64,000 nucleotides of DNA, taken from contig BGZK01000150.1 of assembly GCA_005406025.1 (NCBI GenBank), forward strand, positions 124,001 to 188,000. The letters are read 5' to 3'. This DNA is from Eumeta japonica. Its lineage: Eukaryota; Arthropoda; Insecta; Lepidoptera; Psychidae. How positions within the stretch are numbered: the first letter of the stretch is position 1; the number at the start of each line of letters is the position of its first letter. The translations under genes were made by a program, and so were the position numbers. Positions 955 to 62,700 of this stretch are shown piece after piece. Under the pieces are notes generated by a model that worked only from the letters and a program-made list of their open reading frames with translations, ran no database searches and was not told the origin of the DNA.

Positions 955-2127
955 AATGGAATAAACAAAGTAGTTCTGGTGGCAAACAACAGAGTGGAAA
1001 AAGTAGCGGTGGAGGTGGTGCTGGAAGCGGCAGTGGCAGTGGTGCTGGTAGTGGAAGTGGAGCTGGTGGTGGCAGTGGAGCCGGCAGCGGCAGTGGTGCC
1101 GGCAGCGGTAGTGGTGCCGGCAGCGGTAGTGGATCCGGTAGTGGAGCCGGCAGCGGTAGTGGTGCCGGCAGCGGTAGTGGATCCGGTAGTGGAGCCGGCA
1201 GCGGTAGTGGAGCCGGTAAAGGTGCCGGAAGCGGCAGTGGTGCCGGCAGTGGTGCCGGCAGCGGTAGTGGAGCCGGTAAAGGTGCCGGCAGCGGTAGTGG
1301 TGCCGGTAGTGGAGCCGGCAGCGGTAGTGGAGCCGGTAAAGGTGCCGGCAGCGGTAGTGGCGCCGGCAGCGGCAGTGGTGCCGGCAGCGGTAGTGGATCC
1401 GGTAGTGGAGCCGGCAGCGGTAGTGGAGCCGGTAAAGGTGCCGGAAGCGGCAGTGGTGCCGGCAGCGGTAGTGGTGCCGGTAAAGGTGCCGGAAGCGGCG
1501 GTGGTGCCGGCAGTGGTGCCGACAGCGGTAGTGGAGCCGGTAAAGGTGCCGGAAGCGGCGGTGGTGCCGGCAGTGGTGCCGGCAGCGGTAGTGGAGCCGG
1601 TAAAGGTGCCGGCAGCGGTAGTGGTGCCGGTAGTGGAGCCGGCAGCGGTAGTGGAGCCGGTAAAGGTGCCGGCAGCGGCAGTGGAGCCGGTAGTGGTGCT
1701 GGCAGCGGTAGTGGAGCCGGTAGTGGTGCTGGCAGTGGCAGTGGAGCCGGTAGTGGTGCTGGCAGCGGTAGTGGAGCCGGTAGTGGTGCTGGCAGTGGCA
1801 GTGGAGCCGGTAGTGGTGCCGGCAGCGGCAGTGGAGCCGGTAGTGGTGCTGGTGGCAGTGGAGCCGGTAGTGGTGCCGGCAGCGGCAGTGGAGCCGGTAG
1901 TGGTGCTGGCAGCGGTAGTGGAGCCGGTAGTGGTGCTGGCAGTGGCAGTGGAGCCGGTAAAGGTGCCGGCAGCGGCAGTGGAGCCGGTAGTGGTGCTGGC
2001 AGCGGTAGTGGAGCCGGTAGTGGTGCTGGCAGTGGCGGTGGAGCCGGCAGCGGCAGTGGAGCTGGCAGTGGCAGTGGAGCTGGCAGCGGCAGTGGTGGCG
2101 GTGGTGGCGGATCATATGAAAAAGAAG
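955..2127 (+). CDS. Gene 1 repeat exon X: GAGSGS / GAGKG repeats
   Basis: The acceptor TTTTTACAG precedes 955. With a G carried from the previous exon, the frame reads EWNKQSSSGGKQQSGKSS, then about 360 residues built almost only of Gly, Ala, Ser and Lys. The basic unit is GAGSGS, with GAGKGAGSGSGAGSG variants and occasional GSGS insertions. The exon closes with SYEKE-G and the donor AAG|GTAAAA at 2128. Its length of 1173 nt is divisible by three and both boundaries are phase 1. The KE(K)G ending and the donor match the poly-Ala exon at 6098-6901. GAGSGS resembles the GAGAGS crystalline unit of silkworm fibroin, but Ser is more frequent and Lys is added every few units. Read-through past 2127 stays open to a stop at 2223-2225, so an alternative terminal exon cannot be excluded. 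Confidence 0.72.
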
Positions 2128-5100
2128 GTAAAAATGACGAAAAAGAATGTAAGAATAAAGCAAGATGGAACTATCACACGACATACGTAATTAGATGTGG
2201 CACTAGCAACTGGCGCTACATCTAAATTTGAGTAAATGCATGCTAAATTTGATTATAAATAAGATGTCAAACATAAAAACATTGGGAAAGTGCGTATAGA
2301 ACTCGTAATCTAAGTGCTCCGTACAAACTTATTATGTGTGTTATAATTCATCCGTCAAGAGTCTCGATGACTTTTGTTAATTAACTATTTTCAGATTTTT
2401 CTTTAATTGTGCTGTGAAATTTGATAAGAAGAAAGAGGCCTTCCTTCTGATCAAACTTTATAATTCTAGATCAATAATAAGTACCCTATAGGTTTCCATT
2501 CCCTTATGTTTATCAAAATATCTTGAGTAAAGAGCTGTATTTTTTGATTGCGTTGACTTAGAAGTTTGAGTTTTTCACAGCTCCAAGAGATCGTAGACCT
2601 AAGTATTTGATATTAATTTCCATTGGTACCCCCATGCGTTTCTGAAAAAATCAATATAGACAGAGAAACAAATAGGCAGACAGGCGAACAACTATGTGAT
2701 CCTATAATGGTTCTTTTTTGCATTTCGAGTTACGGAACCCTAAAAATACAGTATGTAGTAATAACATGTTTTATCACAATCGGTAAAATGGTGCGTCGCT
2801 ACCTAAAATAAATAAATATTATACGTCGATACAAGATAGTGACAGGGTTCACTCTCTTTCCCCCATTTGCTTAAGATTTTTCCTTGTCGATGACAGCTAT
2901 TCTTCCTTGGCCACATTATTCAGTGCCCAGCATTCGGTACAATACCCAGTATTTGGTGATACCGTATAAAGGCCGACATCATCTCTGGATAACGAACAGT
3001 AACACCTTTCATATCTTTTTTTTTTTGCTGTCTTCATTTCATTATAAACGAATCGACGAATATTTTCATCTATTAAAATTTTCAAACGACAGGTCAATGG
3101 GAAGAAAACAAGGACAACAGCTGGGAAAAAGGTAAGAATAGAATTAATATTTAGAATTATATTGATCATTAAATAACACGAAATACACTTTACACTGTAC
3201 TATTGTGTGAGAATCACTCTTATATTTATTTTTTGATAAAATCGATAATACCGACGTGTTGCCAATAATGCGTAGACATTGGAAGAGAACCAGACGCTAA
3301 AAGCTTGGACAAACAATATATATATTATTATTATTTATTAATGTTGAATGCTAATAATTGAAAACAGAAGAATAGAGCGTATTAATATTTAATAGGCCAG
3401 CAATGCGCAAGTGACTTCTAAGAAGTTGGGGGTGTCTATGGGCAGCGGTGACCATCTGCTGTTCAATAGCCTGCGTGATCGTTTGGCCCTTATAATTTCC
3501 ATTAAAAGTAGAATAGTATATTTCGGGTGTTCACGATAGCAGTAACCCGGACTAGTTGAATATTTGCTTTTTACTTATATAATGCACATTCAAGAATCTT
3601 TACGTCCCTACTGATTTTTTTTTTAATAAAAAGTTATTTACATGGAAAAGAAATTTCTGATCAAGACAATGACATTAAAGATAACAATTAAAACGCATTA
3701 ATCATAGCCCTTTTCGGGACTTTCGATTGACAATTACGTCATTATCGTTGAAAAGTATCATCTGCATCATCCGACAGAGATCAATACGAATTAAAAATCC
3801 AAACAAAAACAATATTTGTATTTTATAGGTCACATATAACACTTGTAATACCTTACCATTTCAATTTTACATTTACATTATCATTTTACAGTATCCTGGT
3901 CAGAAATCGAAGAAGAGTGCGGTAAGTGTTTATTGAACTCGATCGCCCAAAATTTAAGTCCCGCTCGAGATCTACTTAAAAGCAGTAATTGGAACTATTC
4001 ACAGCAAACTAACTTGTAAAGCGTTAAGGCTTTAGCGGTCGCACGCGCCTCTATTAGCTTATCGCGTTTAAGCTGATGCACTTTTAAATCTGTCTGCATA
4101 TCGATCAGTTAACAAATAAAAATTGTCTTTACTCGTTCTATTTTATATGTGGTCATCTCTATTTCTGTGGCATCACTATCAATCATCTAGTTGATGTTCA
4201 AGGATGCTTATTTGATACTCCGGTACCTATATATAGGTACAAACATAATACTTAGGAAATAGACGCATATTTAAATAAAAATGTGATCTAAAACATTTTT
4301 CCCCGACTAGTCATCTAGGCATTACTGCCAAAGTTGAAATTTATATTATATGTCATTCGTGGTTCAATTGAAGAAAGTTTAACAATGTATCAGTGAAGTT
4401 CACTAAAATTTAATCCTTGTTCTGTAGCTATATTCATTCAATGCTGAAAAGATATTCCGTCTAGAAGCCCAAATCTAGTTTGACCTTTTTAGGGATCCTC
4501 AGTCGTTTTAGAGAATAGAAGTGAATTATGTAACAGTAACATAGAAAAAGAGTATAGGATGATTAAGGGATATTTATTATTTTTATTTTCAAACTGATCT
4601 GAATGGGTGACAGATTTAAATTATACTAATAACTTAACTTGGTTTATATATATTTTATATTTCAGAATCGAGCGAAGCTTCCAACGGCAAAGGTATGATA
4701 TAAAAAAGTGCTCCATCATATAATATCATGAATCTTAAATGTGTTTGACATTAAGCTAATGTTATTATATTGGTTTTAGAAATTTGGCACGAAGAGCATC
4801 AGGAGAACTCATCTTCGTCGAGCGGTAAGTATATATACGTTTTAATATTTTATGCTTCAACTTTTATCGACAACTGAATATTCGATTTTGAACTCCTCAA
4901 TCAGCAATTTTCAGAGCATCAAAGTCGCAGTTGCCGGTTCGTGCTCACGTCCCAAGCCGACATTCATTTTGTCCCTCAAGGCTGTGTACTGTCTCTTACT
5001 TTGTTCATTGATTATACGAGTGATTTACTGATAATCGGTAACATTCGTTGCCACGCGGATGGCAACATTGTGGACGCACTCTACTCCGGCCCCACGAATA

Positions 5101-8100
5101 TTCCTCGAGATCATGCTGACGAGTGTCGAAAACGACTTTTGTATAAAATCGAGACAGATTGACAGAAAATCTTGAAATGAGATAAACTTAAATTTATCGA
5201 ATTTACCCCAGAAAAGCACACTTAGCAGGTTTATTGCTCAAAAAGTCCCTCTTCGTCCTTTTTCTTCTTTTCGGAAGCACTCCCTTTAGTACCACGTCGA
5301 TGAATGAAGATGAAGATATGTACCATTTTTGCGATGTAAATATTTAGCATATATCATGAGGAGTCCTTTGAAAAACAATTCAATATTATTTCGACCCCTG
5401 AATTCTATCATCGTTCCGATTTCTGCATATACATCATTACCATTTGATGGATGGTATTCTACCACCGTACGCTTCAGGCCTAATTTTCTGCCATGTATGG
5501 TAAAAATTCGGAATGATCTACCATCAACAGTATTTCGAATGACCTTTGACAAAGGAGTCTACGAGAAAAAAAACTATTCTCTTCTAAAAGGCCAGTCACA
5601 CGCTAGAAATTTCCTGAGATTATGAGTGTCTATGGCTGGTAGTAATTATCTATTTTTCGGTGGTTCGCGTGCTAAAAGCTACTTTTTGAAAACGTACCCA
5701 TGAACATAGAATCCCTAGCGTACTTTGTTTTCTGATAACGTCGTATCACACAAGCACGTACATTCCATAAATGGGTAAAACCAAATTTTGCCCTTGTGTT
5801 TTCACGGCTCGCTGAAAATGGGCAATACTTTAAATTAAAATATGCGATAGTATAATAGCAGTTTTTAAGATTTACACAGTATTATTATTATGACGTCATT
5901 ATACAGTCGCGGAAGCTGCGCTGCAAATTTTTTGTGGTGAAAGAAAATATATACATTTAGGTTTTTTTTTGGATTCGGTAGGATTTATGAAATTGCTAAG
6001 AAGATATAACGTGATCACCTGCTCATATATATGTTATGTATATGAGTTATATTCTTAATGTGTGTCTGACTGATGTGAGAGTATTATTTTGTTTCAGGAG
6101 GTTCTAGTGGAAGCGATGGTAAAGTGGAAGAATGGAGTAGTGAGAGTAGCGGTAGCAGTGCCGCCGCTGCTGCGGCTGCAGCTTCTGCAGCTAGCAGTGG
6201 TAGCGGCGGAAAAGATGGCCATGGAAGTGGGGGCGATGCTGCCGCTGCGGCTGCTGCAGCTTCTGCAGCTAGCAGTGGTAGCGGCAGCAAAGGTGGAAGT
6301 GGAGGCAGTGCCGCCGCTGCTGCGGCTGCAGCTTCTGCAGCTAGCAGTGGTAACGGCGGCAAAAGTGGCCATGGAAGTGGGGGCGATGCTGCCTCTGCGG
6401 CTGCTGCAGCTTCTGCAGCTAGCAGTGGTAACGGCGGCAAAGGTGGCCATGGAAGTGGGGGCGATGCTGCCTCTGCGGCTGCTGCAGCTTCTGCAGCTAG
6501 CAGTGGTAGCGGCAGCAAAGGTGGAAGTGGAGGCAGTGCCGCCGCTGCTGCGGCTGCAGCTTCTGCAGCTAGCAGTGGTAACGGCGGCAAAAGTGGCCAT
6601 GGAAGTGAAGGCGATGCTGCCTCTGCGGCTGCTGCAGCTTCTGCAGCTAGCAGTGGTAACGGCGGCAAAGGTGGCCATGGAAGTGGGGGCGATGCTGCCT
6701 CTGCGGCTGCTGCAGCTTCTGCAGCTAGCAGTGGTAGCGGCAGCAAAGGTGGAAGTGGAGGCAGTGCCGCCGCTGCTGCGGCTGCAGCTTCTGCAGCTAG
6801 CAGTGGTAGCGGCAGCAAAGGTGGAAGTGGAAGCGATGCTGCCTCTGCGGCTGCTGCAGCTTCTGCCGCTAGCAGTGAGAGTTCAAAAAAGAAAGAAAAA
6901 GGTAAAACATGGCAATTTAGAAAAGTTTTAGTTTAACAACGTAGTAATTTTTAAAATATGTCAAGATCTAAATTAAGTATGTTTAACACTCAAAGATCAT
7001 AAAAAACAAGGAATCTTGTGTGACAGCCGTGGCAGAGTTTCTGGCTGTCCTCGTCACGGATTTGGTCACAGACGCTATGTTTTGTTGCATGACTTTTCAA
7101 AAGCCTCGGTGTCATTTGTCCTTTCAGATATCTCTCACGGAAATATTTCCATATGAGTATTTCATCTAGGGGCACAAAATTAAAAAATCTGAGTATTTAA
7201 TAATTTTGGTGGTAATAGAGAATCCTAAATTTATTTATTATTTTTGGACTGTTTTACGATCTTGCGTACGAAATCGTCAGTATAAATTCATCTGAAAATT
7301 CATTGATCATTATTGGAATCATTTGTTATTATATTTTGCAAAAGTTATGTTAATGTTCAAACTTGAGATGCATATAGTTACGTATTATTTTTTTTTTTCG
7401 CAGACAATCGTAAATACGTGGATATCGCGATGCCAGGTAATTCATTACTGTTTATATCTACATTTTGTATCTAATAAAATAATTTTATTTTCGCTGCGGA
7501 ATTTTATTATTTTTCATATATTGTCAAGAAAATATTAAAATTTAACTTTCATTTAATTACATTTTTTCAAATAGCGGTGCATACGTAACCATTTTTATAT
7601 CGTTTCAGTATTTAGAAATCTGTTTATCTTAATAGAACATCCGGTAGAAAAAAGTAAAGTAACCACACATACGATGTTCAAAAAGAGCTGATCCCGTTTC
7701 GATTCGGAAGGATCACATGGACGATGCTTTTTGTGTATCCGATAATATGTGAAATCCATATTTTTACAGAATGGTTCAACTACGAAGCAGACAAAATTAT
7801 GGTGAACATGATCGACAACGGCCAAGAAACGGAGTACGTCATCAAGATCGTAAAAGCCGACGGTAAGCCATCAACCCTTAATAAAAGATTCCGTGGCAGC
7901 GTCGGGATGCATGTGATTCGAAGACAATCAATAAAAGATAATTAGTTATTTAGAAGGTTCGAATCAGTCAGGAAGGTAATCGTATAGCCATATAAAGCCC
8001 CAACTTTGTGTGTTTATCAATCTAAATTCCTCCTTAGCTCAAATCACATAATTCATATTTCAATTTCCTCGAAAGGAAACCCCTGTGGCATCGTAATTCA

Positions 8101-11100
8101 CTTTCCGTTCGTCCATTTGTAGTTTAGGATGTAAATTTGTTTTGTTGGGTTGGCTGGCCGTTCTCGCACTGGTTTCCGTCCAGCATGGTTCAATATTCAG
8201 CTACAAGCTAGTAACCGACGAGTCATTAACTTGAATCGAGTCGAACCACTCGCGCCATGCTTCAGAGAGCACCATAAGCAATCGTTCATAATGTCGTATA
8301 ATGTTACAGATATTATTTTCCGTGACAGACGCCCTCTCTTATTGTGTTTATGGCCGCTTTTCACCCACTCGCCACTAGAACCTGCAATACTTCCCACCTC
8401 CTACTTGGTTTATACCATAGGCGGATTCTCTGTCGAATTGAATACCCATACGCGGGAAAAATAGAAAGACTTACAATGCTACAAAAAATACCACAAGTTA
8501 TTATCATATATTTTAAGGATTCTTCATTGAAATTCATATAAACGTCTAAACTATTTTACAAAACACATGGTGTAGTCCGTATTAGGTACCTTTTGACCGC
8601 CTTTTCAAACACAGCCTGTGTGTGTGCTGGCCATGAAAACTGTTTATCCATAAGTTTATTTTAATTTTGAGGAAAAATGTACAAATTTAACAATATAAAT
8701 CGGGAGTGCTAGGAGGATGGTTACCCTCCTTACACTCTACTGCCCAAAAATTCCTCGTTTTGAACGCCAAGTGCACGCAAACGTCGTCATAGTGAAGCAT
8801 AATCTGTTCTAATCTGTTATTTTCCATAACATCATAAACGCACCGAAACTGGTCTCCCTTGAATTTTGCTACCAATTCAAAGTACCATTCTATTCAAACC
8901 TGCGTTAGATAGTGTGGTACTCTGTGAGAAACTATGCTAGTTACGCGAAGATGTCAGTGTGGAATTCCATGCCCACTATCTGGTCCAATTTGTATACACT
9001 GAATGTCTTCGTATGTGATTCGTCTATTCTCTTCAGTTAAAATTTTGATTATCACCACGTTTTTTTCTGTAACAGCCGTCAAAGGACGCCCACTTTTTTC
9101 TTTGTCCGACAAAATTACTTGTCCGCCCTTAAAATTCATTGAAAAAATGACAAACAGTCTTTCTTATGAGGCTTTATCTCTCAAAACAGTTCGAACTCTT
9201 TTAAATGATTGTTTTAACTCTAGTCAACATTTAAAAACGATTGCGAATTTGGGATATCTAAATTTTTTTTCTAAAGTGATAGAATTTTTTAACTCGGTTT
9301 AAACCAAAAAGAATTTTTTTATTAAAAAATGTTTTTGCTAAACATTTTGCGTTGACTGATATCATGTACATATATTAAAGAATGCCGCTCATTTTGAAGA
9401 AAAAGATATTTGAGAAGAAATTTAGTTTATAAATGATAATTATTTATACAAGCCATGATTTGTATTCACTGAATACTGTAAGAAGAGACGTCGAATCTTC
9501 GACCCAATTTTCTCTAGAAATATTTAGGAGTCAATGCAATTATTTATAATTTTGTTCAGAATTTTCTAGCTAAATACACCTAGATCGTATAAAATGTGCT
9601 CTGTGTCTCAATGCGCTTTTTCGATAATCGATATAATTATATCCCGTATTGTAATCCAGAAACTAAGAATTCCGTTTTTATTTTCTTGATTAGCCCCTTT
9701 AGTATTTTCTCAATTTGTCAATGTGTGAAGTATATCAGGGGTATAAGATTACATTTCCTAATTCTAGTACAAGTGAAAGTTGTATGGTATATGTATATGT
9801 TAAATGGTATTTTAGTGCATTAGTTCCTTTCAGGGATTCCCTTTGTTGGGAGTATTAAACCGAATTGTTTGTGTAAGCTTATGTAAGTGTAGCAACGAAA
9901 GCATATCTATGCTTTGGCTACTACATTATTAATATGTTTTTATAGTATAGCTTGATGTCAAAAATAATGTCGATGTCACGAACGAAGAAAACACGGTTAA
10001 CTTTTTAACTGACTATACTATAGGTACATAGAATAGGCAAGTATTTTCACGAGTAACAATTATTATGTAGCCTATTCAAAAATTGTTGGCTGTTGTTAAA
10101 ATCACACAATTATTTTCAAAATCTTGCTGTAGTTCCTGACAGTCATCAACAGTTTGTACAATTTTGAAAAATTTAGTGTCATCTGCATAGATACGATAGT
10201 TAGAGTTATTAAAGTAAGATCCTATGTTATCGTCATAGAAAGTAAATATGAAAGCACCCAAATGGAATCCTTGAGGAATTTCTTGAAATGTTTTCGTGTA
10301 TGTTATCAGTTTCTTAAGCAAATAACTAAATTCTTATATTGAAAGATTGAATTAATTCCTTGCAAAGGTAATGATGGCAAAGGTGACCACGGTGGCGATG
10401 GCGGTAAAGGCTGGGGTGGTGATAAAGGAGGCGATGGCGGCAAAGGCGGGGTCGGCGGTAAAGGTGGGGATGGCGGTAAAGGTGGGGATGGCGGTAAAGG
10501 TAGCGACGGTGGTAAAGGCGAGAACGGTAGTAAGGGCGGCGGCGGCGGTGGCGGCGGCGGCGGTGGCGGTGGTGCTGGCGGCGGCGGCGGTAGCGGAGGA
10601 GGTGGGCTGGCGGCAATGGTGGCGGGGCGATAAAGGGGTGGTGGTGGTAAGGATATGAGTGGGGGCAAAATGAGGTGGAATGGTGGCGGCATGGTGATGG
10701 GTGATGGCAAATAACAGGATTAAATGATAACATGATGCAGTGGCACAAAGGACAGGATGAAGCTGGTGGGACGATGGCATGGCATACAGTGCAGGATGAC
10801 AACAGCAAATATGGCGATGATGGCGGGCGGGTCGGCTGGCGGCGGCAATGGCGGAAGTGCAGGTGGCAGCAGGCAGATGCCATGGTGCTCGGTTTGGTGC
10901 CGATGGCAGCAGGCGGGCGGCGGATGGCGGGAACATGGCAATGGTGAGGAAGGATGGCTGGATGGCATGGAAGGGCAGTAAACGGTGGATGAAGGAAATG
11001 GTGGAAGGGGATGGAAGAATGGCAGGCATTAAGGCAAGGAAGTATGAAATAATGACAAAATGCGATGGCGGCGGCCAAATCGGCGGCACGATTTACGGCA

Positions 11101-11974
11101 TGGATAAGGGTAACGGCATGGCAGCATAATGGCGGCATTATGGCAGTGGCGCGATGATATTGGCGCCGAATGGCGCAATGATGGCACAGGGCAAGGTGAG
11201 TGGCGATGGCGGATTATGGCAATGGCACGGATGCGAAGGCCGATCAGGAGTAAAATATGACAGTACAGGATTTGGCGGCAATGATCTGGCGACGGCGAAA
11301 TATGTAAGGTATGCGCATGATGGTATGGCTTTATGGCATGGATGGCGCATTAGTGAGCGGATGATATTAATGGCGTCGGTGTTACATGGCGCCGGAGCAT
11401 ATGTGCAGCCATGGCGCATGATGGGCAACGGCGGCGGATGGCGGCATGGAGGCTAAGTAATGGCCGATGGCATGCGGATGGAGGCGGCGGATGCATGGAT
11501 ACGATGCGGGCGATAAATGGTGCGGTGGCAGGCATGGCAGGCGGGCCGATGGCGGCGGCGGTGCTGGCGGAGGCGGCGGCGGCGCTGGCGGCGGCGGTGG
11601 TGCCGGTGATGGCGGCGGGCTGGTGGCGGCGGCAGTGGCTGGTGGCTGGTGGCGGGGCGATGCTGGGGCTGGCTGGCGGTGGCGGCGGCGGTGCTGGCGG
11701 CGGCGGTGGTGCTGGTGGCGGCGGCGGTGCTGGCGGCGGCGGTGGTGGCGGCGGAGGTGGCGGAGCTGGCGGCGGCGGCGGTACTGGTGCTACTGGAGCT
11801 AAACAAAGTGGTAGTGAAGAAAGAAAAGATAGACCGGCAAATGCTTTATTCTTTGCGGGAAACCATCAAAGACAGTATTGCGTATGTTATGAGAGCATCA
11901 AAGATATGCCTTGGAGTGTACGCCTAGCTACAGGCTTAGTAGCCAAATCCAAATGGAAAAAACCGCTGAAATAA
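955..11974 (+). CDS. Silk-like repetitive secreted protein, gene 1 (multi-exon model, 5' end outside window)
   Basis: Gene model: exons 955-2127, 3093-3131, 3892-3921, 4666-4692, 4780-4824, 6098-6901, 7404-7436, 7770-7862, a Gly/Lys exon from 10368, and a 3' coding end at 11972-11974. All of the first eight exons begin and end in phase 1, so any can be skipped or duplicated without shifting the frame. Three repeat types are kept in separate exons, joined by short acidic, Trp-containing linkers. The signal sequence is not in the window; it is inferred from gene 2, whose downstream exons match. Repeats of Gly-Ala-Ser and poly-Ala blocks are typical of insect and spider silk proteins, and CxC near the C-terminus has been described for some lepidopteran silk-coat proteins. 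Function as silk or glue is therefore inferred, not shown; a cuticle or eggshell protein is possible. The 3' portion (10.4-11.9 kb) does not give one clean frame. Confidence 0.7.
2128..3092 (+). other. Intron of gene 1 with a lepidopteran non-autonomous repeat
   Basis: Between the repeat exon and the first mini-exon. The first ~98 nt are open in the exon frame, ending at TAA 2223-2225 and adding a basic tail with two cysteines; this is either intron or an alternative 3' end. About 2600-2745 belongs to a non-autonomous family also seen at 54.6-55.4 kb and on the minus strand at 55.87-55.98 kb: text like 'gacagacaggcgaac', 'tgatcctataa' and the end 'ggaaccctaaaaa'. A TATAAAGG at 2963-2970 has no start codon after it before the next exon and is probably chance. 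Confidence 0.5.
3093..3131 (+). CDS. Gene 1 mini-exon A (GQWEENKDNSWEK)
   Basis: The acceptor CGACAG and donor AAAAAG|GTAAGA bracket 39 nt. Phase 1 on both sides reads G-QWEENKDNSWEK, an acidic linker with two tryptophans. The same style (Trp at the second or third residue, many Glu) recurs in the mini-exons at 3892, 4780 and 7770, which suggests they arose from each other by exon duplication. No known domain is recognised. Too short to prove by itself; it is supported by matching phase, good splice sites and shared composition. Confidence 0.6.
3132..3891 (+). other. Intron of gene 1
   Basis: AT-rich, 760 nt. I see no transposon coding fragment and no extra symmetric exon. It ends in TTTTACAG at 3884-3891. 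Confidence 0.5.
3892..3921 (+). CDS. Gene 1 mini-exon B (VSWSEIEEEC)
   Basis: 30 nt between TTTTACAG and G|GTAAGT, phase 1 to phase 1, reading V-SWSEIEEEC with the split codon supplied by the previous G. Acidic, with the recurrent early Trp. It carries the only cysteine in the mini-exons of gene 1, a possible site for disulfide cross-linking. Confidence 0.58.
3922..4665 (+). other. Intron of gene 1
   Basis: 744 nt of AT-rich DNA with no recognised coding fragment, ending in TATATTTCAG at 4656-4665. Confidence 0.5.
4666..4692 (+). CDS. Gene 1 mini-exon C (ESSEASNGK)
   Basis: 27 nt between TATTTCAG and AAAG|GTATGA, phase 1 to phase 1: E-SSEASNGK. This is the leftmost point where the segmental duplication can be followed: the last bases and the following intron match 56,112-56,211, where the exon copy is decayed. 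Confidence 0.6.
4780..4824 (+). CDS. Gene 1 mini-exon D (EIWHEEHQENSSSSS)
   Basis: 45 nt between GGTTTTAG and AGCG|GTAAGT, phase 1 to phase 1. It reads E-IWHEEHQENSSSSS, an acidic His/Trp stretch running into a Ser run. Its counterpart in gene 2 is 56212-56256, the same 45 nt length with a diverged sequence (QFRFEDHKEFSFSPG). Equal length and identical intron phase in both copies support a real exon. Confidence 0.72.
4915..5630 (+). pseudogene. LINE reverse-transcriptase fragment in intron (copy 1)
   Basis: Frames at 4941-5162 carry a decayed reverse-transcriptase core: VPQGCVLS..., then CHADGNIVDALYSG where a live element has YADD. The 5329-5625 part resembles the C-terminal end of R1/Jockey-like LINE ORF2 (FDGWYSTTVRF...LPSTVF). 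In-frame breaks and the lost Asp of YADD show it is dead. The same fragment sits at the same intron position in gene 2 (about 57.8-58.8 kb), so it was inserted before the gene duplication. Confidence 0.75.
5631..6097 (+). other. Remainder of intron before the poly-Ala exon
   Basis: Non-coding and duplicated at about 58,830-59,288 (for example 'catgaacatagaatccctag' in both). Ends in TTTGTTTCAG at 6088-6097. Confidence 0.6.
6098..6901 (+). CDS. Gene 1 poly-alanine repeat exon E
   Basis: 804 nt (268 codons), phase 1 to phase 1. After a unique start (GGSSGSDGKVEEWSSESSG) come ten blocks of about 8-10 Ala with embedded Ser (AAAAAAAASAASSG). They alternate with hydrophilic Gly spacers of two kinds, NGGKGGHGSGGD and SGSKGGSGGS. 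Units are 72 or 78 bp and are arranged in a 228-bp (76-residue) higher-order period. The exon closes with SSKKKEKG and the donor AAAAAG|GTAAAA. Poly-Ala blocks with Gly-rich spacers are the layout of spidroins and of wild-silkmoth fibroins, where the Ala runs form beta-sheet crystallites; whether this is homology or convergence is unknown. The reverse strand and the other two frames are also open, purely because of the repeat. Confidence 0.85.
6902..7403 (+). other. Intron of gene 1
   Basis: 502 nt, duplicated in gene 2 at 59,955-60,851, where it is longer because of an insertion. No gene or transposon coding fragment seen. It ends in TTTTTTTTCGCAG. Confidence 0.55.
7404..7436 (+). CDS. Gene 1 mini-exon F (DNRKYVDIAMP)
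   Basis: 33 nt, phase 1 to phase 1: D-NRKYVDIAMP. The gene 2 exon 60852-60884 is nearly identical, differing at one residue (His for Arg), while the flanking introns have drifted. This is good evidence for protein-level constraint. The hydrophobic YVDIAMP run is unlike the repeat exons and may be a folded or binding element together with the next exon. Confidence 0.85.
7437..7769 (+). other. Intron of gene 1
   Basis: 333 nt, duplicated at 60,885-61,224. Recognisably the same sequence with many substitutions. No other feature. Confidence 0.6.
7770..7862 (+). CDS. Gene 1 exon G, 31-residue conserved non-repetitive module
   Basis: 93 nt, phase 1 to phase 1, starting EWFNYEADKIMV and ending VIKIVKADG. 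Gene 2 exon 61225-61317 has the same length with four substitutions (N to E, N to K, Q to K, I to V), mostly in the middle. Alternating hydrophobic and charged residues suggest a small folded strand or amphipathic helix rather than silk repeat. With mini-exon F it is the best-conserved coding part of the duplicated pair, so it is the best probe for orthologues. I do not recognise a named domain. Confidence 0.85.
8690..9290 (-). pseudogene. Mariner-like transposase fragment (copy 1)
   Basis: Reading the minus strand, 9139-8954 gives a helix-turn-helix segment of mariner type (KSGRPLTAVTEKNVVIIKIL...RRITYEDI). 8875-8687 gives the catalytic-domain motif LHYDDVCVHLAFKTRNFWAV, corresponding to LHHDNA.AH in live elements. 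Stops and a large internal deletion separate the pieces. Copy 2 lies at 61.85-62.7 kb. Confidence 0.65.
10070..10300 (-). pseudogene. LINE reverse-transcriptase fragment, antisense (copy 1)
   Basis: Minus-strand frame 10321-10076 reads IPQGFHLGAFIFTFYDDNIG...YRIYADDTKFFKIVQTVDDCQELQQDFE. This contains the PQG and YADD active-site motifs of a non-LTR reverse transcriptase. It is only the palm core of an ORF, so not functional. The copy at 63.47-63.70 kb has YADG in place of YADD. Confidence 0.8.
10368..10633 (+). CDS. Gene 1 exon H: GGDGGKG repeats into poly-Gly (3' limit uncertain)
   Basis: After the acceptor TTGCAAAG the phase-1 frame reads G-NDGKGDHGGDGGKGWGGDKGG, then six or so GGKGGDGGKG units, then a run of about a dozen Gly with Ala and Ser interruptions. 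It meets TAA at 10631-10633. One slip in the GGC run would instead read through GDKG to a donor-like G|GTAAGG near 10650. This is the third repeat type of the gene, rich in Asp and Lys and without poly-Ala. Whether the stop is real, a sequencing slip in a (GGC)n tract, or avoided by splicing to the 11.7-kb segment cannot be told from this sequence. Confidence 0.55.
10634..11674. repeat. G-rich low-complexity tract, ~1 kb
   Basis: One kilobase dominated by ATGGC/GGCGG-type words, strongly purine- and G-skewed on the plus strand. No consistent period or single open frame is evident. It links the Gly/Lys exon to the Gly-run C-terminal segment, whose codon repeats it resembles (GGC GAT GGC GGT). 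It looks like a decayed or misassembled extension of the coding repeat. The many ORFs on both strands here are composition effects. Confidence 0.6.
11675..11974 (+). CDS. Gene 1 probable C-terminal segment with CxC motif
   Basis: The frame reads about 45 Gly-rich residues ending TGATGAKQSG, then a non-repetitive tail of about 55 residues: SEERKDRPANALFFAG, then QYCVCYES, then a basic end KSKWKKPLK and TAA at 11972-11974. The tail is followed by AT-rich DNA with ATTAAA at 12083-12088 as a possible poly(A) signal. A unique charged C-terminus with closely spaced cysteines after a long repeat is usual for silk proteins, where it helps assembly or cross-linking. The upstream exon boundary is not resolvable in the G-rich tract. 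Confidence 0.55.
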   Translation, partial: GGGGGGAGGGGGAGGGGGAGGGGGGGGGGGAGGGGGTGATGAKQSGSEERKDRPANALFFAGNHQRQYCVCYESIKDMPWSVRLATGLVAKSKWKKPLK

Positions 11975-22305: not shown

Positions 22306-23673
22306 TTTATTGAAGTTATACTTCTTTTGGCGCGTTTGGATGAGAGTGAATTTGTGAGCTGCGCGCGCACAAACGACATGATGAAGTTAGCCACAGAATA
22401 GAAATAATAAAAAAATATATTTTCAACACTGAATATAGTTACAATACTGAGTGTTCATACTATATAGTACATAGTACAGAGTGTTCATGCTATATATTAC
22501 ATAGTACTTATATTCATAACCCAGTTCTTGCAAAATATAGTATTCATATGAATAATCAATTTTGAGTATTAATTTTCTATAATTATTATTTTTGTTCAAT
22601 TTATTATATATATAAACATTATTTTAAATTTAAATGAAATTTTGCATGCATGTACAAATATGATGATAATGCAATATTATTATGACGTAGAGCTGATCTG
22701 TTGATGGAGCTGGAGGGCGGCCATAGAACTCCGTAATTAAACGACGCAACCCCATCGAGTTTGGGCTCTTTAATTCTTCTTGACGAGTACTTTGATACTA
22801 TATGGTAACCAGGGTCTGTTGATGGAGCTGGAAGGTGGCCATAGGAACTCCGTAATTAAACGACGCAACCCCATCGAGTTTGGGCTCTTTAATTCTTCTT
22901 GACGAGTACTTTGATACTATATGGTAACCAGGGTCTGTTGATGGAGCTGGAAGGTGGCCATAGGAACTCCGTAATTAAACGACGCAACCCCATCGAGTTT
23001 GGGCTCGTTTAATTCGTCTTGACGAGTACTTTGATACTATATGGTAACCAGGGTCTGTTGATGGAGCTGGAAGGTGGCCATAGGAACTCCGTAATTAAAC
23101 GACGCAACCCCATCGAGTTTGGGCTCGTTTAATTCGTCTTGACGAGTACTTTGATACTATATGGTAACCAGGGTCTGTTGATGGAGCTGGAAGGTGGCCA
23201 TAGGAACTCCGTAATTAAACGACGCAATTCCATCGAGTTTGGGCTCTTTAATTCTTCTTGACGAGTACTTTGAAACTATATGGTAACCAGGGTCCGTTGA
23301 TGGAGCTAGAAGGTGGCCATAGGAACTCCGTAATTAAACGACGCAACCCCATCGAGTTTGGGCTCGTTTAATTCGTCTTGACGAGTACTTTGATACTATA
23401 TGGTAACCAGGGTCTGTTGATGGAGCTGGAAGGTGGCCATAGGAACTCCGTAATTAAACGACGCAACCCCATCGAGTTTGGGCTCGTTTGATTCGTCTTG
23501 ACGAGTACTTTGGTGCTATATGGTAACCAGAGTCTGATGATGGAGCTGGAAGGTGGCCATTGGAATTCCGTAATTAAACAACGCAACCCCATCGAGTTTG
23601 GGCTCGTTTGTATATCTTCCCGAACAAGTATAACTTCTCACGCGCGTACATAAGTACACGCACCCAATTTTTT
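22306..23673. mobile_element. Insertion inside the hAT gene, carrying a minisatellite
   Basis: The 11-bp sequence GATATAACTTT occurs at 22295-22305 and again at 23674-23684, and the transposase reading frame is continuous if the intervening DNA and one copy are removed. This fits a target-site duplication. Near the ends are imperfect inverted sequences: GAAGTTATACTT near 22312 and AAGTATAACTTC near 23626, each next to a 'gcgcg' tract. The body is AT-rich (22380-22690) plus eight tandem repeats (22698-23606). No coding capacity. The element family is not recognised. Confidence 0.65.
22698..23606. repeat. 118-120-bp minisatellite, eight copies
   Basis: Units start (CTGTTGATGG or close) at 22698, 22816, 22935, 23055, 23175, 23294, 23414 and 23534. 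Each contains 'ggtggccataggaactcc', 'gtaattaaacgacgcaaccc', 'catcgagtttgggctc', 'cttgacgagtactttgatac' and 'tatggtaaccaggg'. Internal copies are nearly identical; the first and last are more diverged, as expected for tandem arrays homogenised by unequal exchange. It lies entirely inside the insertion in the hAT gene. Confidence 0.92.
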
Positions 23674-53697: not shown

Positions 53698-53736
53698 ATG
53701 CGGCTGTACCTGGTGTGCCTGTTCCTGGTGCTCAGC
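53698..53736 (+). CDS. Gene 2 exon 1: signal peptide (MRLYLVCLFLVLS)
   Basis: 39 coding nt ending AGC|GTGAGT, phase 0. A 13-residue start with Leu/Val core. A very short first exon holding only the start of the signal peptide is the usual arrangement in lepidopteran silk genes (fibroin heavy chain and sericins). Confidence 0.82.
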
Positions 53737-56700
53737 GTGAGTATTTATACTTCTTTACACCTAATTGCATATACAGCTTTAGTGTATTATTATGTTGTTT
53801 CTGATTTTTCTACTAGATGGCGTGGATTTAAACAAAATCAATATATTTTTTAGTGATTCCTTTCCTAGTTTTTGTCGTATATTATTTTTTGGTTTTGGTT
53901 ATATTATATTATGGTTTATTATTTTCCCGACTTTCTTTCTATAAAATTATAACGTCATATAATTTTTTATATTACATTACGATTTTCTAAAATGGTTTAT
54001 TTTAGTAATAATTGTTTGTGGTTCATGGTTTGATATTTACCAAATGTTCAAAGATAATAGTGGATTTTCCTTCTTCTCAAACAGCACCTTATTTTGACTG
54101 TGCCTTCGTGCATATATTGACCTACTGTACTTGTATTTCACGTGTAAAATAGAAATATTTTTTTTCTCTATGATGTACTGTTAATGATTTTTAATTTATT
54201 TTATTTACCACTTATTTAAACTACGGCTATACAAAAAAAAAAAATTAAATGAATATCTCGTAAACAATTTAATATGAGAAAGTGAAATACTCTTTAAAAT
54301 CATAGTCTTTGAAAATAATTAAAAATATTTTAAAAACCCTAATTTTATCACTTAAATCCTAGATTTAAAAACTTAAATTTTTATCACTTAGTCAAAAGTT
54401 GCTAATAATCAAGCAGCAAGCATCTAGCCAGCTGATTCTCGTCCTATCAGATATTAATCTTAGTTCAGCTAAGCTTGAAGGAGATTTGACAACGTTGGAT
54501 TTTCCAATAAATCACATAAAAGAAGCGCGGTAATACAGTGCTATAACACCCGACAGCGTAATACTAAAAATAATATATTTTTTGGGAGATATGAATCAAT
54601 TAAAATATAACAAAAAAAACTAGTCAAGAGCATGTCGGACTATGTTCAAGGGTTCCGAAGCCATTATTACAAAGAAATGCACCACAGACGAAAAAAAGTA
54701 CGTTGTTACACTTTTTCCAGAGTTCTCGCACAGAATAGTTATAAGCACTTAATTTGCTTATGACTATTATAGATAAACAAGCAGGTATGTCGACTATTAC
54801 TATTAAATGGGTGTAGTAAACTAAAGTGCATCAGCAAAACAGCGTATCTTCATGGTACTTAAGTCCTTTTGTTGAGAAGCACAGTTTTTCGGTAATAACT
54901 CAAAAATAGAGTATCTGATCATGTTCAAAATAATTTTCATTGAAAGTATTTATTAAGCGTTACCTTCGTTATTTTTTTCATTTTTTTTGACATACGGGTT
55001 AGAAAATAAAAGACGGGACAATTTCTACTACTTTCGAAGCGATTATTTCAGAAAATTCAAAGTCAAAGAAATTGCTCAAAAACTTTGAAATGTTTTTAAA
55101 AGAATTGTTGAAATATGTACCGCACGTTGATGTTTTCTGAAAAATATTTTTTTCAGTTTCTGTTACATGTATGGAATGCCCCTCCTAGAAATACTTATTT
55201 TTGTTATTCAACTACCAAACCAAGTAGCGGCATATACCAGACACCTACACTATAAATTTCATCAATACACGTCTTGTAGTTTTTGAATAAAATGCCTGTG
55301 ACGTACAGACGGATGTGACGACACTATAAGGGTACCGTTTTTGTCATTATGTCTGGGAACCCTAAAAAAGACATATAATATACATAATTTTTAATTATAT
55401 TTGAGACGAGCTTCGAAATGATCATAGTTTTGTAAATAGTAAAACATAGAGGCATTATTACAAGATATTTGATTTAAGATGCCTCATCTTTAAATATTTC
55501 GGTTACTTTCAATGAATAGTTATTGATTAAAATTATTGTACGCCGGAATGAAGTTGGAATAAAGTAGAAGATAATGAATGGCAGCTAGATCAAGCTTTAA
55601 TCTTACACGCTGAAATGCAGTGAAGTTAACACATTTAAATAAACATTTAAAAAGTATTTCGCGTGTACAATATTTAATTTGAAATGCATCACGTTACAGG
55701 TGCTGAGCGCTCACGCGAACCGTGAGTATTGTCTGTCAGATTATATTATGTCGTAGCGAGTGCATTTGGTCGAAGTCAAATCGATGCAACCGTAGAGGAT
55801 ACATCAACACAATAAAATAATTGTAGCGAATTTCGAAATGGAGGGTTGAGATAAAACTAAATTTCCATCGTACGCCGTTTTTGGGGTTCCGTACCTCAAA
55901 AGGAAAAAAGAAACCTTTATAGAATCACTTCCTTGTCCCCGTTTATCGATCTGTTCCTGCCGAACCTTTAGGGTGCGGGTTCTATTCGCGCTCGTTCGGT
56001 GTTTTATTTCAAAAATATGTCCTAAGAGACTATTCGCTTGTAATAATGAACACCGAACAGCGCAAAAGGAGTAGCCGTGTATTTTATAATAAAATAAAGT
56101 ATAGTGTCCAAAACGACGGCGAAGGTACAATATAAAAAAATGCACCATCATATAGTATTATGAATCTCACGCGTGTCTGACACTTAGCTAATGTTATTGT
56201 ATTAGTTCCAGAATTTCGGTTCGAAGACCATAAGGAGTTCTCATTTTCACCGGGTGGTAAGTATATACATACATACACACATACATAACACATATATATA
56301 CTAGCTTTCACCCGCGGCTCCGCCCGCGTGGACATCGAATAAATTCTTTCGTCTTTAATATAGACTGATCACGCTGTCAACCATAGCCCCGATGTTCCTT
56401 CTTTCCACTTAGTCCTGTCTCCACTTTTGATTTCCATTCTGGTACCAACCTAGATTTCGGGTAAAAAATATACATAATTCATCAGTGGCTCTGTCCGCGA
56501 GGACATACAGCGAATTTCTCATCTCGATCCTTTCATATTCATCAATAACGTTATCAACCGTTATTGATGCCATAACAGGAGGACCTTTAGTAAAATGAAA
56601 CGATGTAAGTAGCTCTTGATATTGATTCCGGTCCTGATCACGATTCCGATCCCCAAGCGAAGTTAAATTTGAACCTCTGTTTATTATAGATGTTACCAAT

Positions 56701-59700
56701 AACCAATCGACATGAAACATTCGTTATATAGCTTCGCAAGCAAAGTCAAGAGCAAAAGCAAGTATATTTATAAATTTATGTGTGAGTTTTTGATATATTT
56801 TTATGTGTGAGCTATATTACTGTAAAGTTTCAGCTGATTCTGTTCAGCTGTTGAAGCTCGATGGAGTAACAAACATACAAAATTTCATAATTGTAATATC
56901 AATAGGATTTAAAAATACTGATGATTCCAGCCAAAGCAGTTCACACATTGATTCCTATCTATTGGAATGTAACAGTCTTTGATATTTATTTAAGGGCTTT
57001 AATGCGAGTGGAGCCGCGGGTAAAAGCTAGTTAAATATATACTTACTGGGATGCTAGATAGCCTTGAAGTTGCTAAATCTCAAATTTTTTGACAAGCAAT
57101 TATACCTGCCACAAAAACTTTTTTTCCCTCCGTAAAAGAGTATTTTGTGTCCTTTCTAATACCCTTGAGAATATGTGTACAAAGTTTCATAATGATCGGT
57201 TTAGTAGTTTCTGCGTGAAAGCACAACAAACAAACTTACATTCACATTTATAATATTACCAGCTATACCGCCCGCCTCGCTGGGTAATTTTTATTATAAA
57301 TAAAATGGCGAAGGATTTACGGAATTCTAAAAATGAGTAGCCTAGAACCATCTACAAATCATCCCGCATCGAATGGTCCCAGTCCCATGTCTATACGTTT
57401 AGTAGTTTTTACGTGATTGGCGAACAAAGACAACGTATTTTCATTATTTAAGTATAGATAGAGATAGATTAGGGATATATATATGCGTTAATATTTTAAG
57501 CTTCAACCGAACATTCGGATTTGGTTTTTGTGACGAAATCAACGACGGCCAAATTCCAAACAACACGAAGTGATATTAAAAAGAATTCATTACGACCAAT
57601 GATATTTAGGAGACTGCTATAGTATTCGTGCAATGTGTTCCATCAAAACTGAGATTTGAACACTACGAGGTCACACTTCGGTATACTCCCGGATTCATAT
57701 CTAGAAGACTGTTTTGGTGCACCTTATCCATGATAAAGCTCAGCTTCTTCTAATTAAAGACATATCGCGATTAACTCCTTCTGTATAAAATGGAATCCAT
57801 TATAAATCACCAGCTTCCAAACTAATTGGAGGAACGTCAGTTGGTAAGACAATCAATACGCTTCTTGAAATTGTTACTGAGCGGTTGATCTTTATTGAGA
57901 AAAGTCGTGAGCAAAGGACAGCTATGGTTGTAAATTTTGATATAGCGAAGACTTTTAACACGATCTGACGCACAGCGCTTCTATTAAAGCTCCCTTTTCG
58001 TAGGCTTCTCCAAAAATTATGTAGATGGATCAGCGATTTTCTCAGCGGACAGAATATCAAAGTCGCAGTTGCCGGTTCGTGCTCACGTCCCAAGCCCACA
58101 TTCATTTTGTCCCTCGAGGTTGTGTACTGTTCCTTACTTTGTCCATTCTTTATACGAGTGATTTACTGATAATCGGTAACATTCGTTGCCATGCGGATGG
58201 CAACATTGTGGACGCACTCTACTCCGGCCCCACGAATATTCCTCGAGATCATGTTGACGAGTGTCGAAACCAACTTTTGTATAAAATCGGGACAGATTGA
58301 CAGAAAATCTCGAAATGAGATAAACTTAAACTTATTGAATTTACCCCAGAAAAACATACTTTGCACATTTATTGCTCAAAAGTCTCTCTTCGTCCTTTTT
58401 CCTCTTTTCGGAAGCACTCCCTTTAGTGCAACTTCGAATATTGGGATCCTTGGTGTAGACATATCGAACAACCTTAAGTTCTGCAATAAAACTAGCGTCC
58501 GGATACTTGAGATGTTCAATAAAGCACGACAGTACTTTAAGTCGTTTCATTGCCTATCACTTTATAGGGCACACCACGACCACATTTAATATAACTTTAG
58601 TCGCCTCTGAGCTGGACCATTCCAATATCAACTTAGATCCTGTCGAGCGCTCCTGCCAACTCGACCCTTTAGCCTTGCGAAGTGATGAAGCATTTTTGCG
58701 ATGAAATATATCATGAAGAGTTCTCTGAAGAACTATTCAATATTTGTTTCTACCCCTGAATTCTGTCATCGCTTCGTTTTCTACGTATACCATCATTACT
58801 ATTGAATGTTGGATCTACTACCAACGGTATTTCGTATCATCTGTACCCATGAACATAGAATCCCTAGCGTACTTTGTTTCCTGATAACGTCGTATCACTC
58901 AAGCACGTACATTCCAAAAATGGGTAAAACCAAATTTTTCCCTTGTGTTTTCACTGCTCGTGGAAAATGGGCAATACTTTAAATCAAAATATATAATAGT
59001 AAAAAGCAGATCTAGATTTATGTAGAGTTATAATTATGATGTTTTCATGCAGTCAGGAAAGCTGCTCCGTAAGTTTTCGATTTCGGGTGATATTATAATC
59101 AAAACCGAAAATAAAAAACATTTTTTTTTTCTTTTAGATTTGAAAATGCAATACGATTCTAAAATAATCTATGGTACTATTGAATTGCTAGGAAGATACA
59201 TCGTGATCACCTGGTTATATATATGTTATTTATATAAGTCATTTCTTAATATGTTTCTGAGCCATGTGAGAGTATTATTTTGTTTCAGGCGGTTCTAATG
59301 GAAGGGATGGTAAGGTGATAGAATGGGGTGTTAATGGTGGTAAGGGTAGCGGTGGCGCTGCTGCCACTGCAGCTTTAGCGGCTAGCAGTAGTAAAGAAGG
59401 CAAAGGTGGGAGTGGAGGCAATGCTGCAGCTGCTGCCGTTGCAGCTTCTGCAGCTGGCAGTGGTAACGGTGGCAAAGGTGGTCATGGAGGTGGAGGCAAT
59501 GCCGCCGCTGCTGCTGTTGCAGCTTCTGCAGCCAGCAGTGGTAACGGCGGCAAAGGTGGTCATGGAAGTGGAGGCAATGCCGCCGCTGCTGCTGCTGCAG
59601 CTTCTGCAGCCACCAGTGGTTACGGCGGCAAAGGTGGTCATGGAAGTGGAGGTGATGCTGCCGCTGCGACTGCTGCAGCTTCTGCAGCCAGCAGTGGTAA

Positions 59701-62700
59701 CGGCGGCAAAGGTGGTCATGGAGGTGGAGGCAATGCCGCCGCTGCTGCTGTTGCAGCTTCTGCAGCCAGCAGTGGTTACGGCGGCAAAGGTGGTCATGGA
59801 AGTGGAGGTGATGCTGCCGCCGCTGCTGCTGCAGCTTCTGCAGCCAGCAGTGGTTACGGCGGTAAAGGTGGCCATGGAAGTGGAGGTGATGCTGCCGCTG
59901 CGGCTGCTGCAGCTTCTGCTGCTAGCAAGGGTAGTGAAAAAACGAAAGAAAAAGGTACTACATACCAATTGTGAACAATTTTAATTTAATAACGCAGTAA
60001 TTTTTAAAATATCTCAAGAAGTAATTTAAGTATGTTTAACAGACAAAGATAAATAACGAGAATCGTCCGATTGTTCCAGTATGATCGTGTTAACTTAATC
60101 ATTTGTATCAATATATACAATACCATCATTCCTACTATCTGTCCAAATCTTGTGTGACAGCCCAGTTTCTCACTGTCCCCGTCACGGATTTGGTCATGGA
60201 TGTACATAAATGCAATTTTTTGTTGAATGACTTTTCACATGCCTCGGTGTAATTTGTCTTTCCAGATATCTTTCACGGAAGTACAAAATGATGATAAAAT
60301 CTGAATATTTAATAATTCTGGTAGTAATCGAGATACGTTTTTATCTCCATCATGAGACACAGAATCCCAAAATTTTAGTGTTTTTCATTCCCAATAATCT
60401 ACTCGGACCGCGCGGTTAATATCGTCGTCAGGTGTAAGATCGAGGGTGGATCAGGGTTGTTATTTATTTATTACTAGCGGCCCGCCCGCGGCTTCGCCCC
60501 CGGTGTTTTTGTTTTTCATACCTGTTTTTGACAGTTCAAAAAGTAAAGTGCTCCGATCGTAACCAAATTTTACAGGATTACTCGTCAGGTTAATCTAAAG
60601 ATTTCCTGAAAGTTTTATTGAAATCGGTCCAGCCATTTCGGAGCCTACCCGAAACATACAGACACACTTTCTTTTTTATATATATAGACTTTTGTACTGT
60701 TTTACAAAATTGCTTACGAAATCGTCAGTAAAAATTATCAAACAATTAATTTGTCACTATTGAAATTATTTGTTTTTACATTTTGCAAAAGTTATGTAAT
60801 GTTCAAACTTGAATAGGTATTATTTTATTATTTCAAATATTTTTTTTACAGACAATCATAAATACGTGGATATCGCGATGCCAGGTAATTCATTACTGTT
60901 TGTATCTACATTTGATATCTAATAAAATAATTTAATTTACGCTACGAAATTTTATTACTTTCCATATATTGTCAAAAAAACATTAAAATGTTGAAATTCA
61001 ACTTTTATTTAATTACATTTTTTTTCAAATAGCGGTGCACACGTAACCATTCTTCTATCGTTTTGCTATTTATAGATCTCTTCATATTAATAAGACACCC
61101 TGTAGAAATAAGTAAAGCAACCACACATGCGATGTAACAAAAGCTGATCCCATGCCGATTCGGAACGATCACATGGACGATGCTTTTTATGTATGCGATA
61201 ATATGTGAATCCATATTTTTACAGAATGGTTCAACTACGAAGCAGACAAAATTATGGTGGAAATGATCGACAAGGGCAAAGAAACGGAGTACGTCATCAA
61301 GGTCGTGAAAGCCGACGGTGAGTCATCGCCCTTAATAAGAAAATCGTATTAGCGGACGAGGTTGAGATAAAAGATTCAGTGGCAGCGTCGGGGCGCACGA
61401 GATTCGAAGACAACTAATAAAAAATAATTAATTAATCGGAAGGTTCGAATCAGTCAGGAAGGTACTTGTGTAGATGGCTATACAAGTACCTTCCTGACTG
61501 ATCCGAACCTTTCAAAGGTGGGGCTTTATATGGATAAAGCCCTACCTTTGTATGCGAATTAACCAACATTACTCCTTAGATTGAACTATATAATTCATAT
61601 TTCAATTTACTCGAAAGAAAACCCCTGGGCCCTACAATACCTGCATTGAACGTTCCCTGTCGTCATAATTGATGTAACTTTCATTTCGCCTATTTTTAAT
61701 TTAGGATGTGAGTTTTTTTTGTGGCGTTGGCTGACGGCTCTCGCAGTGCTTTCTGTACGCCATGGTTCGATATTTGACTAAAAGCTAGAGACCGATAAGC
61801 CTTCAACTTAAACCGAGTCGAAGCACTCGCGCCATGCTTCAGAGCGATGAAAACAGTTTATTTCAATTTTGGCGAACAAACATATAGATTTTACGCTGCC
61901 AATCGGGACTGTTAGGAAGGTGACCTGTGTACTGTCCCAAAAGTCCCTCTTTTCGACTACCAAGTGCGCGGAAACGTAGTCATGGTGAAACACTAGCACA
62001 CAGAGGTTACTGTTCGATCGCTTGCTGCTCACGGCAGTAAACAACTATATTTGCGGCACACTTTTGGACTAATACCTTTTAGCGTTTATGCTTCTTTGAC
62101 ATCGTAAGGCTGCAGAAACACTAGATAAACCGACAATAAAAGTCTTGTAATAATTTACATCCGGCTGGCTGTACTTTAAAAGGCATTGGTTCAATTTGTA
62201 ATAGCAACACGGTCGATTGACTTCGTTTCTTGATCATACTGATAAATTCATGTTTCATCGCCCATAGCATTATCATAAACGCGCCGAGACTAGTCTTCTT
62301 TGAATTTTGCCATCAATTTAAGGTACTCTTCTATTCCGATCTTCTGAACTTGCGTTAGATCGTGTGGTGCCCTGTGAGATACCATCCTACTTACGCGAAG
62401 ATGTCAGTGTGGAATTCAATGCCCACTATCTGGTCCGATTTGTATACACTGAATGTCTTCGTATGTAATTCGTCTATTCTCTTCAGTTAAAATTTTGATT
62501 ATCACCACGTTTTTTCTGTAACAGCCGTCAAAGGACGGCCACTTTTTTCTTTGCCCAACAATGTCACTCGTCCGCTCTTAAATTCATTGAAAAAGTGACA
62601 AACAGTCGTTCATGGCTTTTATCTCTCAACACATTTCGACGTATTTTAAATGATTATTTTAGATCTAGTCAACATTTCAAAATGATTCCGAATTTGGTAT

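Follow-up and report, generated by a model that had tools for sequence, protein, structure and literature searches.

Candidate sericin-1-type genes built from phase-1 repeat exons in a tandem array of the bagworm Eumeta japonica

The locus described here raises the question of what kind of gene would code for silk-like repeats of several chemistries in separate exons that share a single phase. It lies in a window of 64,000 nucleotides (the whole stretch of DNA that was analyzed, C149:124001-188000, where C149 is contig BGZK01000150.1), for which an original prediction had proposed a silk-like gene with an architecture known from no named gene. Our analysis suggests that the two genes of the window, gene 1 (S3) and gene 2 (S4), are very probably two of five tandem sericin-1-type genes, each predicted from its sequence to code for a secreted silk-coating protein.

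Exon structure of the two genes in the window

Within the window, the internal exons of S3 span 955-7862 and the terminal exon continues the gene to 11974 (Table 1). All eight of these internal exons are flanked by an AG acceptor and a GT donor, have lengths divisible by three and are in phase 1 at both ends, just as had been predicted, and the same agreement was obtained for the four exons of S4 to which symmetry had been ascribed (exons 3 to 6; 4/4 with AG/GT borders and lengths divisible by three). Neither of the two long S3 exons (5 and 10) contains an in-frame stop. Examination of the flanking DNA placed the start of S3 at C149:115850 (window -8150), 8.1 kb 5' of the window, where exons 1 and 2 code for MRLYLVCLLLALS and VLSAHAN, recognized by eye as a signal peptide. 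The gene thus totals 13 exons, namely two signal-peptide exons, the cassettes and the terminal exon, and, once spliced, it reads through 957 codons without a stop before the last exon begins.

Table 1. Positions of S3 and S4 features (plain numbers refer to the window, numbers preceded by C149 to the contig)
Feature	Position	Strand	Description
S3 PKQPA exon	C149:120940-121212	+	repeat exon 5' of the window
S3 His/Gln/Ser/Glu/Lys-rich exon	C149:122903-123196	+	repeat exon 5' of the window
S3 exon 5	955..2127	+	GAGSGS repeat with GAGKGAG; 1173 nt, AG/GT, 0 stops, phase 1-1
S3 exon 6	3093..3131	+	acidic Trp mini-exon QWEENKDNSWEK, phase 1-1
S3 exon 7	3892..3921	+	acidic Trp mini-exon SWSEIEEEC, phase 1-1
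S3 exon 8	4666..4692	+	mini-exon SSEASNGK, phase 1-1
S3 exon 9	4780..4824	+	acidic mini-exon IWHEEHQENSSSSS, phase 1-1
S3 exon 10	6098..6901	+	poly-Ala / GGKGGHG repeat, 24-26 aa units, phase 1-1
S3 exon 11 (exon F)	7404..7436	+	NRKYVDIAMP, phase 1-1; counterparts in S1, S4, S5
S3 exon 12 (exon G)	7770..7862	+	WFNYEADKIMVNMIDNGQETEYVIKIVKAD, phase 1-1
S3 exon 13, terminal	10368..11974	+	GGDGGKG / GGGGA repeat, middle interrupted by stops, then C-terminal domain; stop codon 11972-11974
S3 C-terminal domain	11831..11971	+	CXCX (QYCVCYESIKDMPWSVRLATG), sericin-1 type
S4 exon 1	53698..53736	+	putative signal peptide MRLYLVCLFLVLS, ends in phase 0
S4 exon 2	55700..55721	+	remainder of putative signal peptide, VLSAHAN, phase 0 to 1
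S4 exon 3	56212..56256	+	acidic mini-exon FRFEDHKEFSFSPG, phase 1-1; matches S3 4780-4824
S4 exon 4	59289..59954	+	poly-Ala / GGKGGHG repeat, phase 1-1; within deposited protein P0002
S4 exon 5 (exon F)	60852..60884	+	phase 1-1
S4 exon 6 (exon G)	61225..61317	+	phase 1-1
S4 terminal exon with CVCY	C149:188446-190027	+	outside the window, downstream

The intron phases of S3 are 0 followed by eleven consecutive 1s. Phase-1 introns constitute about 0.27 of introns genome-wide, and, if this share is assumed, eleven of them in a row would arise by chance with a probability of about 6e-7. The same phase pattern in S4 and in the paralogue S1 (see below) is shared by descent, so these genes do not count as independent cases. 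The separation of the repeat chemistries that had been proposed is seen in the exons, with GAGSGS/K (50% G, 27% S and 17% A), poly-Ala/GGKGGHG and GGDGGKG repeats each in an exon of their own, but the GGDGGKG exon (from 10368) is terminal and hence not symmetric. The acidic mini-exons that had been called between them are likewise borne out by the reading of the exons, and several contain tryptophan. For exon 6 of S3, tblastn gave no persuasive match in any of the other four paralogues (E of 0.02-1.9 for the best of them). Exon 9 and its S4 counterpart lie inside a 152-bp alignment with 79.6% identity.

S3 and S4 can be aligned through their introns, in blocks of 70-93% identity over 4684-10283. 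The segment comprising exons F and G differs between them at 7 of 126 bases (94% identity), and the intervening intron is 88% identical. One intron block (4912-5300 in S3, 58050-58437 in S4) is 92.5% identical, against 75-80% in the neighbouring blocks. Just past this block, the deposited model P0002 uses an exon at about 58570-58685.

The five-gene array

The survey of the array covered 284 kb (C149:4001-288000), in a genome assembly of 701.7 Mb and 5067 contigs. Five signal-peptide exons were found on the plus strand, at C149 positions 66174 (S1), 84986 (S2), 115850 (S3), 177698 (S4) and 211732 (S5), together with five C-terminal domains on the same strand, whose 40-residue cores end at 80926, 95351, 135950, 190003 and 221903, so that all five starts and all five C-termini fall within 156 kb. 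Each of the five paralogues has a TATA box 72-81 bp 5' of its ATG, and the two signal-peptide exons measure 39 and 22 nt in S1, S3, S4 and S5, with an exon 2 of 20 nt in S2.

The presence of modules was scored by tblastn together with exon order and phase. In S1, the signal exons are followed by a short exon 3, one His-rich and one GAGS exon, three mini-exons, the F-G pair and a last exon of Gly/Ala/Ser type, and tblastn detected no poly-Ala exon in it. Two of its mini-exons, PAWELYEASC and SGEVYDNK, correspond to exons 7 and 8 of S3, respectively; both were missed by tblastn, and the pairing of S1 and S3 mini-exons relies on order and phase, the tblastn scores being weak or absent. S4 and S5 each have a single mini-exon between the signal exons and the poly-Ala exon, then F, G and a last exon of Gly/Lys type, and PKQPA, His-rich and GAGSGS exons were not detected in them by tblastn. 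S2 retains exon 1, the short exon 2, a damaged and stop-containing exon 3, a His-rich remnant and a last exon of 4.3 kb (C149:91081-95375), in which 14 units of 93-94 aa, made of poly-Ala, GGX and a Tyr linker, precede a sericin-type CICY domain, with two frame shifts as assembled. Given the exon 2 shortened by 2 nt and the stop in exon 3, S2 may be a pseudogene. The paralogues thus differ through the presence or absence of whole phase-1 exons, neighbouring copies not all carrying the same symmetric cassettes.

The recurrence of the F-G pair in S1, S3, S4 and S5 upholds the reality of these two predicted exons, and a genome-wide search for exon G yielded four places, all four candidates being on C149. 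Among deposited proteins of Eumeta japonica, a species of the bagworm family Psychidae, EVAR_22222 and EVAR_22229 map to C149. The deposited model P0002 (S4) runs from poly-Ala straight to G without F and P0001 (S5) includes F, both being BRAKER2 predictions for different copies; the authors of this gene set caution about artefacts.

Within the C-terminal domain, 20 of 47 columns are invariant across the five paralogues, and the motif reads CVCY in S3-S5 and CICY in S1-S2, with the two cysteines present in all five. The dN/dS ratios, all of which stand without a significance test, are 0.18, 0.32 and 0.44 among S3-S5 for 40 codons of the C-terminus and 0.43-0.78 in the other seven pairs; over 59 codons the S3-S5 pairs give 0.26, 0.53 and 0.78, a weaker signal than over 40. 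For the F-G segment, the ratios are 0.29-0.38 between S1 and the others, and 0.60-1.46 among S3-S5, where they derive from 4-8 changes.

Evidence for a sericin-1-type identity

The array is best read as sericin 1 on account of its CXCX motif, its gene layout and its alignment to a presumed silkworm Ser1 sequence. For this alignment we used what we take to be the silkworm Ser1 C-terminus, against which S1 to S5 scored 71, 79, 55, 49 and 58, and in each case none of 5000 shuffles scored as high. A protein database search with the C-terminus, which required exact shared words, returned 7 candidates, none with E <= 0.1, and a further protein search, again requiring exact shared words, returned no candidate. 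Pfam gave no family for any of three queries (the terminal domain, F-G and the signal peptide), and a scan of viral contigs with the C-terminus gave 9 pattern matches, none of which was confirmed. As no match to a deposited Ser1 was obtained, the identification rests on the motif, the gene layout and the presumed silkworm sequence.

A passage in PMC9745057 describes CXCX as lying close to the C-terminus of all Ser1 proteins, an excerpt of PMC8347419 reports it also from Src1A and Src1B of Pseudoips, and the Ser1 of Yponomeuta has exactly CVCY (PMC9684489). In Bombyx mori, Ser1 has, as here, a signal peptide spread over exons 1-2, many exons and a CXCX C-terminus; PMC8329953 gives it 9 exons over about 24 kb, of which exons 1-2 code for the signal peptide and exon 3 is optional, with five splice forms or more. 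In the bagworm, by contrast, there are five copies, the exons number up to 13, and some modules are of fibroin-like GAGSGS and poly-Ala type. The pyralid genes Ser1a and Ser1b (Ephestia, Galleria, Plodia) share the CXCX C-terminus and are in tandem in Plodia, but number two copies rather than five; for the Plodia Ser1, microsynteny with silkworm Ser1 was used as a criterion (PMC12661448). Ser1 of Yponomeuta cagnagella has 8 exons and likewise CVCY near its C-terminus, but is Gln-rich (28.9%). Among the points against sericin 1, CVCY lies 27 residues from the end in the bagworm versus 17 in Yponomeuta, and glycine and alanine dominate the composition, with serine at 22.8% of S3 exons 1-12 and 11.0% of the S4 part, unlike classical sericins. 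The higher dN/dS ratios among S3-S5 (C-terminus over 59 codons, and F-G) and the damage in S2 also count against it.

The prediction of a lepidopteran silk-type gene is supported, and the statement that no named gene has such an architecture is not, given that silkworm sericin 1 combines many exons, a split signal peptide and cassette splicing with the CXCX C-terminus that is also found here. The kind of gene is already known in outline, and what differs are the fibroin-like repeats and the five copies. The five-copy bagworm array was not found in our literature searches, and the bagworm silk-gland transcriptome paper of Tsubota et al. may already describe these genes.

As a sericin-1-type product, the protein would start with the signal peptide of exons 1-2, continue as a string of phase-1 cassettes and finish with the repeat and CXCX domain of the last exon, and its expression would be expected in the middle silk gland. 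Among the modules, the hydrophilic ones (His/Gln/Ser/Glu/Lys, PKQPA and GGDGGKG) could hold water and glue, the GAGSGS and poly-Ala modules might bind, blend or interlock with the fibroin core, and the two CXCX cysteines may cross-link chain ends by disulphide bonding. Individual cassettes could be skipped in splicing, and the mixing of cassettes by alternative splicing without frame loss, as originally proposed, is plausible by analogy with silkworm sericin 1 and allowed by the symmetric phases; the same symmetry would permit their gain or loss in evolution with the frame kept.

Alternative readings and the repeat exons

The candidates that we ranked below sericin 1 were a pseudogene array, fibroin heavy chain, adhesive-gland glue and mucin 1. 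The first of these holds that the array is decaying and partly pseudogenic, the stops and shifted frames in its repeat exons being real, and it draws on the following interruptions. The last exon of S3 (1607 nt) has 14 internal stops, located 263-986 nt into it; those of S4 and S5 have 33 and 16 stops in the start frame, and the two ends of the S4 exon are out of frame with each other. Six stops and a scrambled middle occur in the GAGS exon of S1, and the poly-Ala exon of S5 (approximately C149:216189-216753, 565 nt) has 15 stops and a length not divisible by three, so that it breaks the frame as assembled. The last exons of S1 and S2 contain 16 and 50 stops past frame shifts, and exons 2 and 3 of S2 are damaged. 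Against decay, about 250-300 nt at each end of the S3 last exon are coherent and in the same frame, the middle alone being scrambled, and the two ends of the S5 last exon also share one frame. Moreover, the C-terminus encoded behind the stops has, among S3-S5, dN/dS ratios of 0.18-0.44 (40 codons) and 0.26-0.78 (59 codons). The source of the sequence is a further point against decay, as part of PMC6488591 describes the E. variegata genome as a nanopore-only Canu assembly with short-read polishing.

Locus tags suggest that the present assembly is the published E. variegata one, but the totals given for the latter are different (724-732 Mb, 12,720 contigs), perhaps because small contigs were left out here. 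The scrambling is consistent with nanopore sequence left unpolished in Gly-rich DNA of low complexity, and an error of the nanopore assembly is the likeliest cause of the interrupted middle of the S3 last exon. Scrambling is not universal: the GAGS and poly-Ala exons of S3 are clean, and in the S5 poly-Ala exon the 5' part is scrambled and the 3' part clean. We regard a decaying array as improbable.

Even less probable is a second fibroin, made in the posterior silk gland for the core of the fibre and carrying borrowed sericin-type ends. The GAGSGS, poly-Ala/GGX and 94-aa S2 poly-Ala/GGX/Tyr repeats do resemble fibroin chemistry, and bagworm H-fibroin is described in parts of PMC6488591 and PMC6443776 as having poly-Ala and Gly-Ala motifs together. 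Compared from descriptions, the Eumeta variegata fibroin heavy chain is alike in its poly-Ala and Gly-Ala type repeats, but differs in its gene of about 19 kb (a passage of PMC6488591), its own termini and its units of about 160 aa. The fibroin-type layout of a short exon 1 and one giant repeat exon was not found, S3 having 13 exons against the two of H-fibroin in Yponomeuta (PMC9684489), which accords with the predicted departure from fibroin heavy chain. Furthermore, the signal peptide and the C-terminus are common to five genes, the latter being of sericin-1 type, and hydrophilic PKQPA and His-rich modules lie in the same S3 frame.

Slightly behind this stands a foothold glue of the bagworm adhesive glands, made there rather than in the silk gland; the modules appear adhesive, and separate adhesive glands exist in bagworms (PMC8370998 defers the description of their organic glue to a later report), but both the CXCX C-terminus and the divided signal peptide are features of sericin 1, which is a silk-gland protein. 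A mucin-1-like silk protein is the least credible alternative: the many exons speak for it and against sericin 1, as sericin repeats lie in tandem within large exons whereas mucin 1 duplicates whole exons (PMC9684489), yet mucin 1 has CXCXCX with three cysteines near its end (according to a section of PMC9745057) against two in all five genes here, and neither Thr nor Pro ranks among the seven most frequent residues of S3 exons 1-12.

With sericin 1 retained as the preferred reading, the present gene models describe a sericin-1-type array in a bagworm, a moth studied for the strength of its silk. If transcripts join the exons as predicted, the boundary between fibroin and sericin repeats would be crossed within single genes, and exon choice could tune the silk. 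We tentatively raise the possibility, which we consider less than even, that the bagworm sericin-1 locus is a five-gene kit in which phase-1 exons with crystalline repeats of fibroin type (GAGSGS, poly-Ala/GGX and the fibroin-like 94-aa units of S2) are set together with glue-type modules between fixed sericin ends. Were this so, the coat would contain proteins that are half fibroin and half sericin, tuned by exon choice, and these could help the coat to adhere to the core of a notably strong silk.

Elsewhere in the window, a 120-bp unit is repeated in tandem about 7.6 times with 96% matches (22697-23609), beside transposon remnants. An open frame at 23608-24090 matches DUF4371 with an E of 9e-17, a domain that we take to be typical of hAT-type transposon remnants.
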